Shown piece by piece: positions 11,333-40,293 of a DNA stretch of 64,000 bases. The DNA comes from Bryum argenteum (lineage: Eukaryota > Streptophyta > Bryopsida > Bryales > Bryaceae), in NCBI GenBank assembly GCA_037043015.1, contig CM073322.1, positions 1,933,601 to 1,997,600 on the forward strand. Reading direction: 5' to 3'. A program made the translations under genes and the position numbers. A model generated the notes under the pieces. The model had not been told where the DNA came from and ran no database searches. It was given only the letters and a program-made list of their open reading frames with translations. Position 1 is the first letter of the stretch, and each line of letters opens with the position of its first letter.

Positions 11333-14300
11333 AGTAGTATGGCCCCAGGTTTGTGGCGTAAGGGCAGGGTTGCTAACCTGTCTCTTAACACCAAACCCCC
11401 TAAGTTTATTGGCTTCTCTTATTATTTTCTTACGTACTAGCCGAGAGTAATTCTGTTTCTATGTGAACAATAGTAGCCACTTTATGAGTAGCCAAACAGA
11501 AAATATCACCGGTCGCTGCATCTGTGTCGATAGGCGAATCATTATCATCTTCAACTGATGAAGATTCCAACATTTTCTCTGCATTTTGATAGCTCTAGTC
11601 GTCAGTCGCATGACACAAGCTTCAAATACCCGTCTATGCAGAAACCCTATCATTCGTGACGTATATAATACCCTTCACTCCTAGTGAGGATATTTTAGCC
11701 TCTCTCTTAGTATTTCATTCCCACCCTAGTACCTGTTGCCAACCTACTTCATGATGTATCATACCCCGAAGTGTAGTTGCTTGCCTGACTTTTTTTTTTT
11801 ACTCTTTTATAAACCATTTTTTGACTACTTTCAGGGATGGTTGTCCTTTGGGTACATATTGTTCTCCACTTGTGCTTCTGGCCAGTTGTTTTTTAGTGTA
11901 TGATTCTAGTCACATTCCTCTGCGGCCTTTCTGTCTGAGAGCAGTATTAATTGTTGTTTATCCAGAATGATGCGAGTTAGTCGGCAGCTTAGCTTGATAA
12001 TACTTCTCGGACACTGTGCATGTGAGCATGGCTTACGTCTGGGCAGCCTGGCGGTTGTGCAGGGTCGAGATTCATATGCTGGAAACTCCGGAAGAAATCC
12101 TAGTTCCTCTCGAAATTCCAAAGAGTGAGCAGATGGGCTGAAGCTGGGTCCTTCCTGCATATACCTGGTTCGAACGACATACATGTAGTGCAGCTTGATT
12201 ATCGTTCTGGCCTTGTAGTGTATCTGCCGTGCTTAGTCGTGAATTAACTAATAGCTGCTGCTGCCCTTTTTCATCAGCCAGGTAGTAATTCTGAGTATTA
12301 CACCAGATTGAAGTTCATGAATACCGGTATGTATGTAGATGGCCATGGGCGTCCAGTTTCCAGGAGGATAGAACTGTTTTTACTTCAGTGGCACTGTTGA
12401 TGCCTTGTCTTGGGTCTAGGTAATCGAGATTTTGGTTTGATCCGATAGTTCCCATTCAGCCACGGTATGCTAGTCACCTATATTCTCTAGCTTGCAGTTA
12501 GAAGAAGAAGAAGAAGTCCGTTGCCATCTGTTAGGGCGTGCTCAGAATGTGGTTTCAGAGTTGATGAAGCCCGTTGCCTAGAGGAGAATAGACTTAGTAA
12601 CTTGCTATTGGTGTACATTGGTCTTACTGTACTGTTGGAAGCCAGAAGAAAGTCACCGAATCGCCTCTTCAGAGTCTTACTAACTGCAATTCTTCTTCCT
12701 CGTCTCTAAGTAGTCATACAACCTTCGATATTCCTAAAATTGGTCTTCTATTCTCGATAAGAATCCATGTTCATTTTTCTACTTTTTCGACAGGGTAGAT
12801 GTATATTAGTGAGCAGGCTCAAGAGATCTCGTTGATTGTCCAAGGTTATGTATTCAGCACAGGGAGTTAGTCATCAGGTCACGAAGGTTGTGTCTTCAAT
12901 GTATTATGGTCAAGTGTCTAATCATCTTACCCCTCTCATTTCTTAGAATTACTTCGATTGCACCATGAGAAGGTTAGTGTCTCCAAGGTAGGTCTTATGA
13001 AAGCGTGGAAAGTCCCTGTGTTGGTGATTTCAATGATTGAGAAATTCTGTACCATGGACAGTTTCCTCAAATATTAAGAAAAAGCTATCAGTATTGTATT
13101 TTTAGTCTGCGTCCGTCAATTGTTGAATTCTTGCCTCTTGTGTTGGTGTTCTTCAAGTGCAATTTCTCTGTTTTGCAGCAGACTTAATTTGCATTTATGT
13201 CGTTGAGTCCTTGCTTTTTGCCTTTTGCCTTTTGTGTTGCCGTCTTGGAAGGTTTTGTCGTATCTGCCTTGACCTTTGCATTAGGTAGCGTCGTAGTATC
13301 ACAGCCGAGAATGTACTTGCCGAGAATGTTGTACATATGTGCAAATGTATGTACAGTACTTGAAAGAATGTGTTTTATCCTCTGTACAATTTATGATCAG
13401 TCAGGTCCACAATCAGTACGAACTTTTCTTTGAAGGCAGTTTTTATTGAGACCTGTGAATATTTCCCGTGAACTAAAAAATGATCCGATTTGGAATCTGT
13501 AAAAGTGTGCACTGCATACATACAAATAAAGTTTAATGTTGCACAAGTTATAATTTCTGTATGCACCATTTACCATTGAGTACTCTCTCCTTCTTGAATT
13601 ACAATATTCATTTTTGCTTGCATATTTGAAATGAGTTCTTAAAACTGTTCTTTGGACACTTGAGTTCTTACTTGTTGATCAATTTCTTGTTTGTTTATTG
13701 GCTTGGGAAAATTTCTTTACAGGTCTCACACTTAGTGTTTTCTATTGAATTGAGTTCTTGTTGATCATTTTCTTTTTTGTTTGTTGGCTTGAAGAAATTT
13801 CTTAATAGGTCTTATAATCAATGTTCTCTATTTAAATGAATGCAAGCCCTTTACACCATAACAAATGTTCTATGAGAATTGAAGGGATGGTTTGAAGCAA
13901 GTAGGCAAGCTCAATTTTTTTCTAAGAATCATGCCTATTTTAAGAAATTCAACCTTCAGTGCCGATGAAGACCACATCAAGAAACTACTCCAATCCAAAG
14001 GATTAGAAACATAAAAATCTTGCAGTAATTCAAGAAGTATAGATCAAGTATCCAAATAACAACTTTGGAAACTCATCTCAAATCTGCACGCAAAAATGAG
14101 ATGCATAGAATTACATTACACTTCGATTTGAATCCAATGCACTTTACGTTTCTCTAATCGGATCATTTTTAGTTCAGAGTTAAAAAAAAATTGCCTTTAG
14201 AGAACATCTTGAAACAATAGTGGACCTACTTTAGAGGAGAAGAACGTACTTTCCCTTCACGGGGGCAATTCTCTCATGAATTATACAAATTTTGTATGCA

Positions 14301-27478: not shown

Positions 27479-30400
27479 ATGGACTTCGAGTTGCGAGCTG
27501 CAAAAGCGAAATGGGAGAAGGAGCAGAAGGAGAAGAAAGAGAAGGCGCGGAAGCGATTAGAGTCTGAGAAAAAAGCTCGAGAAGAAGCAGCAAAGCGGCA
27601 GGAAGCGATCGAGGCAGCGCAGCGAATTCGACGATTGGAAGAAATGGCTGCAGCTCTTGCCGTAAGTATCTCATCTCGTTCACTTTGACTACTAAATCGT
27701 TCTCCCTCACTAATTGTTATTGGTATTGTGTTTAGGCGTCAGAGCGAGAACAGGCGGATCTCGAAGCTGGCGATGGGATTGTTTATAACCGAGTGTTTAA
27801 AGCGTTGCCTATTGCTAGCAAAGGCGACAAGATTCGGCTTCCCCCTTCGGCGTTCGAGCACCTTTCTTCCTCTAACGCCATTGACAAAGGCCCTATGTTC
27901 TTTGAAGTCTCTGCTGTGCATCCTCGCCCCGCATCCTCAGAAGAGGTATAGTCTGTTTTCACTGCAATTGATCAACTTTTCTGATGCTTTGCTCATCTTC
28001 GACAGAGATGTAGCTCCTCTCGATCAACCTGTAATCACTATAGTGAGTTCCCGATGCTTGTTGTGATCTTCCTCACCTTCGGACGAGGTATAGCTCTTAT
28101 CACTGCAAATCGATCAGCCCCAGATCATCATGGCGATCTTATACTGCAATGGATCAACCATTGGCAGTTTCTGATGCTTGTTGTGGTATTGCTCACCTTT
28201 GAAAGAGGTTTAGCACTCATTACTGCAAATTGATCAACCTTGATACCGTGATGCTTGTTGTATTAGTGCTTACCTTCGGAAGGGGTATAGCTCTTTTTGA
28301 TCAACCCCAAATCAGCATAGCGAGTTCGTGATGTTTGTTGTGATATTGCTCACCGTAGAAAGAGGTATAGCTCTTTTCAAATAACCCGAATTCACCATAG
28401 CGAGTTCCAGATGCTTGCTCACCTTCGAAAGAGCTACAGCTCTTTTCACTACAGACTGATCAACTCTTCTTATGCACTTGCTCAGGATGGAAGAACTGCA
28501 ACCCATGCAGGAGTGCTAGAGTTTACAGCAGAAGAGGGGCACGTGGAGCTTCCACCCCACGTATGGCGAAACGGGGGATTTTCAGATACGAGTAAAGAGG
28601 CAAGAGTTCGTTACGTGCGTCTTCCAAAAGGGAAATACGCAAAGCTGCAACCTGAAGGACGAGATTTCGCAGTAGTACTCAACCACAAAGCTGTTTTAGA
28701 AACCGAGCTGCGGCAGCACGCGTCATTGACGCAGGGTGACTTACTCACAGTCCAGCACGGCGGCGTCGAATACGGCCTGAGAGTATTAGAACTCAAACCA
28801 CAAACCTCAGTCTCTGTCCTGGAAACAGACTTAGAAGTTGATGTGGTCGGAGCTGAAGATTCATCAGCAAGCTCTCAAAGCAGGTTAACACCGTTGACGC
28901 TCGGAAAGGCTGAAAGTGGTGTTGTGGAAGAAGGAAGCTACTCGTATTACCGTTTCACGATCGATTCCCAGCTTGAGAAAGGGGTTGAAGCTCGCAGCTT
29001 GGATGTTTTGGTGCATTTAGAAGTGGAGAATCAGAGTGAGGCAGATGCAGATTTGTATGTGGCTGCACATCCGCTACTTTTTCCTACGAAACATCAGCAT
29101 CAGTGGTCTTCCCATGATGTGGGATCGAAAGTCATTTGCTTGACGGCCTCTTCGAAGGAAGTGAAGGCTGGTGGATATAGTGTTGGAGTTTTTGGATTTC
29201 AAGGAAATACTCGATTCTCGTTGCGCGTGGAAGCGAAGGCTGTTGAAGTTGTCGAAGCTTCCACTCAGGGACAGCGGCTGATGAGTAGTAGTAGCGGCAG
29301 CACCTCCTCGCAGCCTGTTGATGATGGGTTTACTCAATGTGAGAATTGTAAACAGTCGGTTCCTGCCAGAACACTCATGCTCCATGAAGCGTATTGTAGG
29401 TAAGACCTCATTCACTTCTTGCCTCTTCTAACAAGCTATAAGCTTTTGCTCTTATTCGTAACTGACGTTTTTGACTTAGTGGTCGATCCTGAAAAGAGTC
29501 AACTGTTTCAACAATTTTCGATTGTGCATAAGGTAGCTTATGTGGGTAGAAAACCGATTGTGACTTGTGCTGTAGACGGCATAACTTCTTCATAGCATGG
29601 ATTTGTAAATGACGTTCTTTGATTTGGTGCAAGTGTGTCTCTTTCAAATAATCAATCACCATTCCACATGGTCGTTATAAGACCCACAAGTTTTTGACAT
29701 TGAAAAGGGTTAAGTGTTCCGACAGTTGTGGTTTATGGCTTGTGTATTGACTGGACTGTAAAATTGTGCTGTAGACGTCATAACCTCGCATGTCAACACC
29801 CTGGCTGCGGTGTGGTGCTACGAAAAAGCGACAAGGACAAACATGCGCATTGCAGCAAGTGTGGACTCGGCTTGACAGGAGATGAGTTACCGAAGCACAT
29901 GAAAGTGTTTCATGAACGCCTCAAGTGCGAATGTGGAGTCGAGCTCGAGATGGAAGCCATGGTAAGCAAGCTTTCATATCTTGTAACTCCAAATTAAACC
30001 GAAAGTGTTCGATAGCTTTCTCCAAGTTGCAGGTCTTTCCATGGGGTGTGTATGATAGATCAATGGCGAACCCTTTTTTAGTGTTAACCTCCCATACTTG
30101 TTCTTGTTTAACATAGAAAAATGTAAAGCAACAATTGGCCTTGATTCTAGCTTGTTTTGGGCCCGCTCTGATTGTGGAGATGGTGCATGCAGGTGGATCA
30201 TCGAGCTTCCTCCTGCCCGAAGCGATTAGTGAGCTGCCGATTCTGCGGAGACATGGTGCAAGCGGGAGCAGCGGCAGAGAATGTCCGTGACAAACTGAAA
30301 GGCTTGAACCAGCACGAAAGCGAGTGCGGTGCTCGCACTGCAGACTGCGATATCTGTAAGCGTGCGATCATGTTGAAAGAGATGGACATTCACACAGCTG

Positions 30401-30732
30401 CAGCTCACGGACCACGAACCACCCATTCTCCTCCTCGCCATCAACCGACTGCACCGACACCGGCTGCTCCAAGCCCGCATGTGGTCGAGTGCCCGATTTG
30501 TTCAGTGAGTTTCCGAGGCTTAGACCACGAGCAACAACTGAATGCTCATCTCGACAATGCACACTTCTCGCCACAGCAGCAGGTGCCGCCCTTGCCAAGT
30601 GCTATGGATGTTGATGGTGAGCAACAGCATGATTTGTCTGCGCTTCGAAGTTTGACTGTTTCGTGCCCCATTTGTGGCATGGCTGTGCATAGTGAGCGAG
30701 ATTTGAGCCAACACATTGATCTTGTTCATTGA
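27479..30732 (+). CDS. UFD1-domain/zinc-finger protein (plant PRLI-interacting factor K type)
   Basis: Five exons (27479-27661, 27736-27945, 28486-29399, 29775-29961, 30193-30732) encode 677 residues. Residues 5-60 form a charged helix (WEKEQKEKKEKARKRLE). Residues 65-245 or so are the UFD1 double-psi barrel, with DKIRLPPSAFEHL, THAGVLEFTAEEG and YAKLQPEGRDF. The C-terminal half carries Cys/His fingers: CENCKQSVPARTLMLHEAYC, then CQHPGCG, HCSKCG, CECG, a CPKRLVSCRFCGDMV finger, and two C2H2-like ends (CPICSVSF..., CPICGMAVHSE...). UFD1 barrels bind ubiquitin and recruit Cdc48/p97; the fingers recall TRAF-type domains. The domain order matches Arabidopsis PRLI-interacting factor K. The role is inferred as ubiquitin-linked protein turnover. 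Introns 2 and 3 contain tandem copies of their own splice junctions. Confidence 0.92.
27946..28485 (+). repeat. UFD1-like intron 2, built of seven tandem units
   Basis: Units of about 65-120 bp start near 27936, 28003, 28081, 28201, 28280, 28360 and 28429. Consensus features are GAAAGAGGTATAGCTCTT, CACTGCAAATTGATCAACC, CATAGCGAGTTC, GATGCTTGTTGTG and TTGCTCACCTTC. The true donor (GAAGAG/GTATAG) is the start of unit one. The true acceptor (TTGCTCAG) is the end of unit seven and differs by one base from the TTGCTCAC of other units. Confidence 0.88.
29565..29585 (+). repeat. Duplicate of exon 4 acceptor in UFD1-like intron 3
   Basis: TTGTGCTGTAGACGGCATAAC repeats the real junction at 29764-29784 with one change, 199 bp upstream. 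Weaker matches extend upstream of both. Confidence 0.8.
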
Positions 30733-39537: not shown

Positions 39538-40293
39538 ATGTCTGATTGGACTCATTGGAGTAAAGTCGCACATGACGCCCCCTTCAATCCCTTGCCATCA
39601 AAGCGCGACATGACGGAGGAAGACTCTGAAAGCTCAAACGATGACAATCCCTTCGCTCCTTATGAGAGCGAGTATCCACGAATCCGTTGGCTGCCTCCAG
39701 GTGGGACTTGACTGTGAAAGTAACACCACTTAATGACTTCAATAAAATTGGTGCGTTGAAGATGATGCCTAACACGCGACTGACACTCAACATTTTCTGA
39801 AAAGCACAATTCTGAATGCAGCTTCACGTGTTGTTCTCTTCAATCAGGTCTGCCGGGGAGAATGATACCATCACCTCCTCCGAACACCAACACCAGTTTC
39901 CCTCTGCAACCCTGGGATGGATCCAATTGGGCTTCGTTTGCAGGCCATCAGGGACTGAGCTACTATGAAGAGAACGATTACATTGCAAGTCATCGGGGTG
40001 CTCCTGAGGAACGGAGCTACTATGAAGAGAACGATTACATTGCAAGTCATCAGGGTGCTCCTGAAGAACTGAGCTACTATGAAGAGAACAAGTATAGTGC
40101 AGTAGCGGAGGTTGAAGATGTGAAGTCTTGTTGTAACGAAGGTGAGAGGAGACGTAGGTCTAAGAAGAGCCAGGACGACGCAGTTGGTGCACAACATGTT
40201 CGTGGCCGTGGTCGCAGCCTCCATTCGAGGTTGCGCAGGGCACTAGTAAAAAAACTATGTTGCATGACTAGCCACAAACATGTACACTCGTAA
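39538..40293 (+). CDS. Small orphan protein with 23-residue tandem repeat
   Basis: Two exons (39538-39700 and 39848-40293; CTCCAG/GTGGG donor, CAATCAG acceptor, phase 1) encode 202 residues. The first exon is acidic (TEEDSESSNDDNPFAPYESE). A Pro-rich section follows, then a unit of about 23 residues built around SYYEENDYIASHQGAPEE, present twice and then partly a third time. The basic C-terminus (RRRRSKK and RGRGRSLHSRLRRALVKK) could be a nuclear or membrane-binding tail. No domain is recognised. The consistent phase and the in-frame repeat favour a real gene. The ATG was chosen because the frame upstream reaches no better start. Confidence 0.55.
39957..40093 (+). repeat. 60-bp-class coding tandem repeat
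   Basis: GAGCTACTATGAAGAGAACG and the following bases recur at offsets of about 60 bp (39957, 40014, 40074), with the third copy diverging. They encode the SYYEEN repeat. Confidence 0.85.

Follow-up and report, generated by a model that had tools for sequence, protein, structure and literature searches.

How can an intron come to hold many copies of its own splice junction, and what does the gene then make of them? Parts of an answer have been described. The "mirage" minisatellites of amphioxus, found in the globin genes BflGb6 and BflGb9 (and in Adh3, as cited there), are minisatellite-like tandem duplications of an intron–exon boundary into several units, and both 5' and 3' boundaries can be involved (PMC3087553). 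Many of their units, though not all, carry AG/GT signals, and regular splicing is said to be undisturbed; in BflGb6, the units are 81–100% identical and come in haplotypes of six and of three (PMC3087553). In potato, one tandem duplication across an intron–exon boundary made an additional intron, shown with the help of relatives (PMC4974935), and the fission yeast introns SPOG_01682 and SOCG_00815 hold 24-nt tandem repeats with a similarity that runs into the adjoining exons (PMC3629103). Finally, Cryptococcus CNN00420 has amplified a repeat of ~107 nt that comprises exon ends and a full intron (PMC2395259). For a boundary minisatellite filling a plant intron, we found no report by titles and abstract openings, in a search outside of which most subscription papers lie.

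Here, we consider the second intron of a moss gene, which looks very much like such a structure. We argue that a short intron, already present, probably grew in place as its 5' junction and its body were duplicated in tandem again and again, a reading of the sequence to which we assign a probability of about 0.7.

The window (the whole stretch of DNA analysed, 64,000 nt, at C2:1933601-1997600) is from an assembly of Bryum argenteum of 258.8 Mb in 25 contigs. A UFD1/zinc-finger gene spans positions 27479-30732 of it, and five exons join into a single open frame of 677 aa, in which Pfam recognises four families (UFD1_N1, UFD1_N2, Znf_XAF1_N, and TRAFD1-XIAF1_ZnF). An earlier gene model of four exons and 439 aa was wrong at the 3' end and has been replaced by this one. 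The Arabidopsis gene At4g15420 is, we presume, a relative with a similar layout; the name appears in none of the 10 literature matches listed out of 144. Introns 1 to 4 measure 74, 540, 375, and 231 nt, and the gene's parts that matter here are these:

27479..27661, plus strand: exon 1, from the ATG (reading frame; Pfam on the joined protein)
27736..27945, plus strand: exon 2, ending in phase 0 (reading frame)
27946..28485, plus strand: intron 2, 540 nt, a degenerate tandem array (repeat analysis, reading frame)
28486..29399, plus strand: exon 3, with a start that has no profile match to the array units (joined frame, profile)
29775..29961, plus strand: exon 4 (joined frame)
30193..30732, plus strand: exon 5, through the stop codon (joined frame)

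Does intron 2 resemble itself more than chance would have it, as an earlier note on this DNA maintained? It does. Its 540 nt contain 362 pairs of 12-mers that agree at two or fewer mismatches, whereas 200 dinucleotide shuffles give 8.1 on average and never more than 27. When the window is cut into a grid of 236 segments, each 540 nt long, two segments that overlap intron 2 take ranks 6 and 7; the five that rank higher coincide with a poly-A run, a (TG)n run, and a 63-nt array. Tandem Repeats Finder, which the earlier note had named as a check, sees a part of the array (28247-28417, period 80, 2.1 copies) and leaves the rest unreported, presumably because the units differ by insertions and deletions. 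Anchored on GCTCA, the array divides into seven units, listed here along with the exonic tip and the true acceptor:

27929..27990, plus strand: unit 1 (62 nt), in which GTATAG at 27946 is the true donor (recovered at E 3.7e-5 by a profile of units 2-7)
27929..27945, plus strand: the exonic tip that matches the units, at the start of unit 1 (10.4 bits; 0 of 1959 AGGT sites reach this score)
27991..28070, plus strand: unit 2 (80 nt), donor GT lost, ATGTAG (profile, donor reading)
28071..28190, plus strand: unit 3 (120 nt), putative decoy donor GTATAG at 28088, with a partial extra copy at 28143-28158
28191..28267, plus strand: unit 4 (77 nt), putative decoy donor GTTTAG at 28208
28268..28347, plus strand: unit 5 (80 nt), putative decoy donor GTATAG at 28285
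28348..28416, plus strand: unit 6 (69 nt), putative decoy donor GTATAG at 28365
28417..28477, plus strand: unit 7 (61 nt), donor GT lost, CTACAG
28478..28485, plus strand: the true acceptor, TTGCTCAG (0.80 pyrimidine over 20 nt, the top value among 32 AGs in the intron)

A profile built from units 2-7 only recovers unit 1 at 27932-27980 on the plus strand of the window, at the E value given above, and its top match outside the array on that strand has an E of 1.6. Pairwise identity between units is 69–84% over aligned columns, and adjacent units are not clearly closer in sequence than those far apart. Identities in this range argue that the array is old, and that it is not an assembly artefact of identical copies. 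The earlier note's central claim, that intron 2 is built of seven tandem copies of its own junction segment, stands, with corrections to what each copy contains.

These corrections concern both ends of the unit. The true donor reads GAAGAG|GTATAG, and it had been said that every unit opens with a copy of this exon end and donor. Five of the seven units (1, 3, 4, 5, and 6, the true donor included) have indeed kept the GT, as many but not all of the units do in a boundary minisatellite; it has been lost in unit 2 (AT) and in unit 7 (CT), and the array itself seems to start further upstream, as discussed below. By estimated U1 pairing, the true donor is the best of the seven (-6.9 kcal/mol), followed by units 3 and 6 (-5.8), unit 5 (-5.4), and unit 4 (-4.4), with the GT-less units 2 and 7 at -1.0 and -1.3; donors 1 and 3 of the same gene are estimated at -7.6 and -9.4 kcal/mol. 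At the other end, the claim was that every unit closes on a motif close to the acceptor. TTGCTCAC does close three of the six inner units, but the other three differ (TTGCTCAT, TTCCTCAC, and GTGCTTAC, once each), and at the acceptor-equivalent place none of the six has an AG. Outside the true acceptor, the AGs of intron 2 have a pyrimidine fraction of at most 0.70. One candidate inner acceptor is a TTAG at 28266 in unit 4 (TTGTATTAG, pyrimidine 0.60), which lies seven nt upstream of the acceptor-equivalent place.

Intron 2 is in phase 0, so the donor reads GTA TAG, and an mRNA spliced from any of the inner donors would retain this stop codon. From the reading frame, we infer that splicing uses the first donor and the last acceptor and no others, and it is plausible that splicing skips the decoy donors. 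Hairpins that mask the decoys (AAAGAG...CTCTTT around GTATAG) were considered as a reason and set aside: predicted accessibility does not separate true from decoy, the donor of unit 6 standing at 0.66 compared with 0.36 to 0.42 for the true donor (flanks of 20, 35, and 60 nt).

What if the inner junctions were not skipped at all? Each unit opens with much the same exon tip and donor, so a splice made to an inner AG|GT would bring the original donor back; the intron could then be removed stepwise through recursive (zero-length-exon) splice sites, with the same donor rebuilt each time and the mRNA unchanged. AG and GT do stand side by side in units 3, 4, and 6, exon 2 (GAAGAG) joined to GTATAG would restore the true donor sequence, and some units, as we read them, have a branch-like CTGAT upstream. 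Yet the inner AGs concerned (28087, 28207, and 28364) come after purines, the pyrimidine fractions before them are 0.70, 0.55, and 0.45 compared with 0.80 at the true acceptor, and an intron of 540 nt has no need of such a device. We regard recursive removal as very improbable. If it were nonetheless true, the array would be a self-correcting intron, and recursive splice points could arise directly when a 5' junction is duplicated in tandem.

Where, then, does the array begin? The final 17 nt of exon 2, a block length chosen after the repeat list had been seen, were aligned on the donor and scored with the inner units as the reference; the resulting 10.4 bits are equalled by none of the 464 AGGT sites in the window, by none of 1959 such sites in 264 kb, and by two of 63362 plus-strand positions. 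When the last three exon bases (possible splice consensus) are dropped, the score is equalled by one of the 464 sites, by two of the 1959, by none of 555 GAG|GT sites, and by 68 of the 63362 positions. The 12 nt just upstream of the tip score -15.9 bits; that is, the match to the units ends there. Given the standing of the tip among AGGT sites and this end to the match, the unit probably includes an exonic tip of 14–17 nt, and the array appears to start that far inside exon 2 and not at the donor. At this edge of the array, GCATCCTC occurs twice in exon 2 (27918-27938), 13 nt apart, which may be chance.

One might object that the array is a minisatellite like any other, that it stays within the intron, and that its likeness to the exon end is owed to chance or to a splice consensus that both share. 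For this reading, the exonic tip agrees with the unit consensus at just 11 of 17 positions, and its 10.4 bits compare with 18.7 to 27.8 for the inner units scored leave-one-out. A cruder test, which took the closest ungapped copy of the 24-mer across each of the gene's eight splice junctions, looked for within 600 nt, and set it beside those of 2970 random positions, is also non-significant here, with 16/24 for donor 2 (reached by 14% of random positions) and 14/24 for acceptor 2 (reached by 68%). Moreover, this genome often duplicates short segments locally: of 1484 pairs of neighbouring segments, 70 score as high as a duplication in intron 3 that is described below. The single-copy result speaks against the exonic tip, and the profile of the six units speaks in its favour. 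Once the donor sets the register, confinement to the intron has to contend with the 1959 AGGT sites that all fall short on 17 nt and the 555 GAG|GT sites that all fall short on the 14 nt before GAG, as well as with a blastn pairing of 28429-28484 with 27941-27995, which extends five bases into exon 2. We judge confinement to the intron unlikely, and the earlier note's proposal of growth by tandem duplication of a junction segment draws its support from the tip that outscores those 1959 other sites, as expected of units that span the exon–intron boundary.

Did the intron also arise this way, as the same note had ventured? In the AGGT-duplication (Rogers) model, a coding segment with an AGGT proto-splice site is duplicated in tandem and an intron is born between the copies, with a body that comes from the duplicated exonic segment; there are precedents in potato and fission yeast (PMC4974935, PMC3629103), and the exonic tip that appears to be part of our unit is in keeping with it. 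The start of exon 3 does not match the unit profile (score 0 with the acceptor G and 0.13 without it), and blastn of the array against the gene's exons, at E 0.01, returns no match except the tip of exon 2, although a divergence of 16–31% between units could hide one. An alignment of the exon 3 start with unit 7, tried as evidence of acceptor-side homology, was rejected (of its score of 22.5, TTGCTCA alone provides 14, which leaves 8.5, and the profile score is 0). Birth from coding sequence is thus not supported, the divergence of the units leaves room for it, and we hold it to be a little more doubtful than a minisatellite confined to the intron. The unit has the appearance of an exon tip plus an intron body, so most likely the intron existed first. 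The array does not show the birth of an intron.

At a distance of ~140 kb, on the minus strand (C2:2105371-2105547), there is a degenerate relative of exon 1 interrupted by one TAG, and downstream of it, the start of exon 2 seems to be joined to a stretch of exon 3 without the intron 2 region. It was considered as an outgroup and, with that region missing, is uninformative on the array.

Growth in place of an existing intron can be pictured as follows. Intron 2 would at first have been short and unremarkable. A segment made up of the final ~17 nt of exon 2 and most of the intron body would then have been duplicated in tandem, by slippage or unequal exchange. The first duplication might conceivably have run between two CTCAG motifs, one in the exon tip (27936-27940) and one at the intron end. 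Repeated several times, long ago, such duplication would have left a minisatellite in which each unit has its copy of the 5' splice junction. The copied donors would be without a strong partner ahead of the last acceptor because the acceptor-like ends of the inner copies have no AG, and splicing would remove the whole array as a single intron, joining the first donor to the last acceptor. Whether the inner ends came to have no AG through one change in a founder copy or through selection, donor copies could then build up without creating short extra exons. In all of this, we infer the pre-existing intron, the mechanism of duplication, and the splicing in a single step. How short was the original? 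Without the exon-like tip, a unit measures 44–63 nt (103 in unit 3), and any original length is a guess because these tip-less units are shorter than intron 1 (74 nt), with introns 3 and 4 longer still at 375 and 231 nt.

Searches of the 258.8-Mb genome at the DNA level with 601 nt and with 157 nt, by a method that passes over very common words and gives scores to the top candidates alone, match this locus only, and we found no copies of the array elsewhere. Introner elements have near-identical copies in many genes; units at a single locus are not such a family, at the sensitivity used.

The same gene, however, has a second boundary copy:

29565..29588, plus strand: second copy, inside intron 3, of its acceptor together with 13 nt from the start of exon 4 (22/24 compared with 29764-29787)

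Acceptor 3 is the only outlier of the eight junctions in the single-copy test (21/24, a value that 2.3% of the 2970 random positions reach or exceed within 600 nt). The extended alignment between intron 3 and exon 4 scores 35.4, compared with a maximum of 29.9 in 598 random segments; it is this score that 70 of the 1484 neighbouring segment pairs attain. The idea that intron 3 holds a dead copy of exon 4 was dropped, as the exonic match is weak once the 24-mer is left behind (equalled by 104 of 1494 random segments; shuffles, 0.024), and a junction copy of 24 nt is all that we claim there. Arrays of period 25 or more take up 6525 of 264000 nt, and the boundary copies may be by-products of a general tendency of this genome toward local duplication. 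Elsewhere in the window, an in-frame 57-nt repeat (39950-40089, 2.5 copies, with a 19-aa unit around SYYEENDYIASHQGAPEE) lies in an open frame of 169 aa that has no Pfam match at E 0.001, and two 86-nt copies with the acceptor-like motif TTTCTTWAYAGGTCT lie at 13671-13839. Elsewhere in the assembly, contig C12 has an intact rbcL frame (PF00016), followed by a frame that we take to be accD; the pair points to a green plant, and the rbcL has a moss- or liverwort-like look. A large contig also carries a partial rbcL broken by four stop codons (G000:C3:9744694-9744897), probably a plastid insertion.

How does the moss intron stand among the known cases? In Cryptococcus, the copies count as separate introns, whereas the moss copies appear to be one intron. 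The fission yeast introns are likewise made of tandem repeats with a likeness that extends into an exon, but their units are short, exon-like, and furnished with AGGC proto-splice sites, and gain was inferred by comparison; the moss unit is an intron body with an exon tip. As in potato, a duplication that crosses a boundary copies splice signals locally in a plant gene; unlike potato, where one duplication made an additional intron, many copies fill a single intron here. The closest known kind is the amphioxus mirage, and intron 2 fits it by structure as we read it, with tandem units of a boundary and splice dinucleotides in many but not all of them. It departs from the mirages of BflGb6 (81–100% identical) in that its units are 69–84% identical, in that it is seen in one assembly, and in its plant host.

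Intron 2 is, therefore, an example of a structure already described in animals and not a new principle. What it offers is a legible record of how an intron can lengthen (the junction copied, most donor copies still with their GT, and acceptor-like ends without AG), as well as a ready-made case in which the spliceosome's choice between donors that are nearly identical, all in one transcript, can be put to the test, and with it, boundary minisatellites as known from amphioxus are extended to a plant gene.
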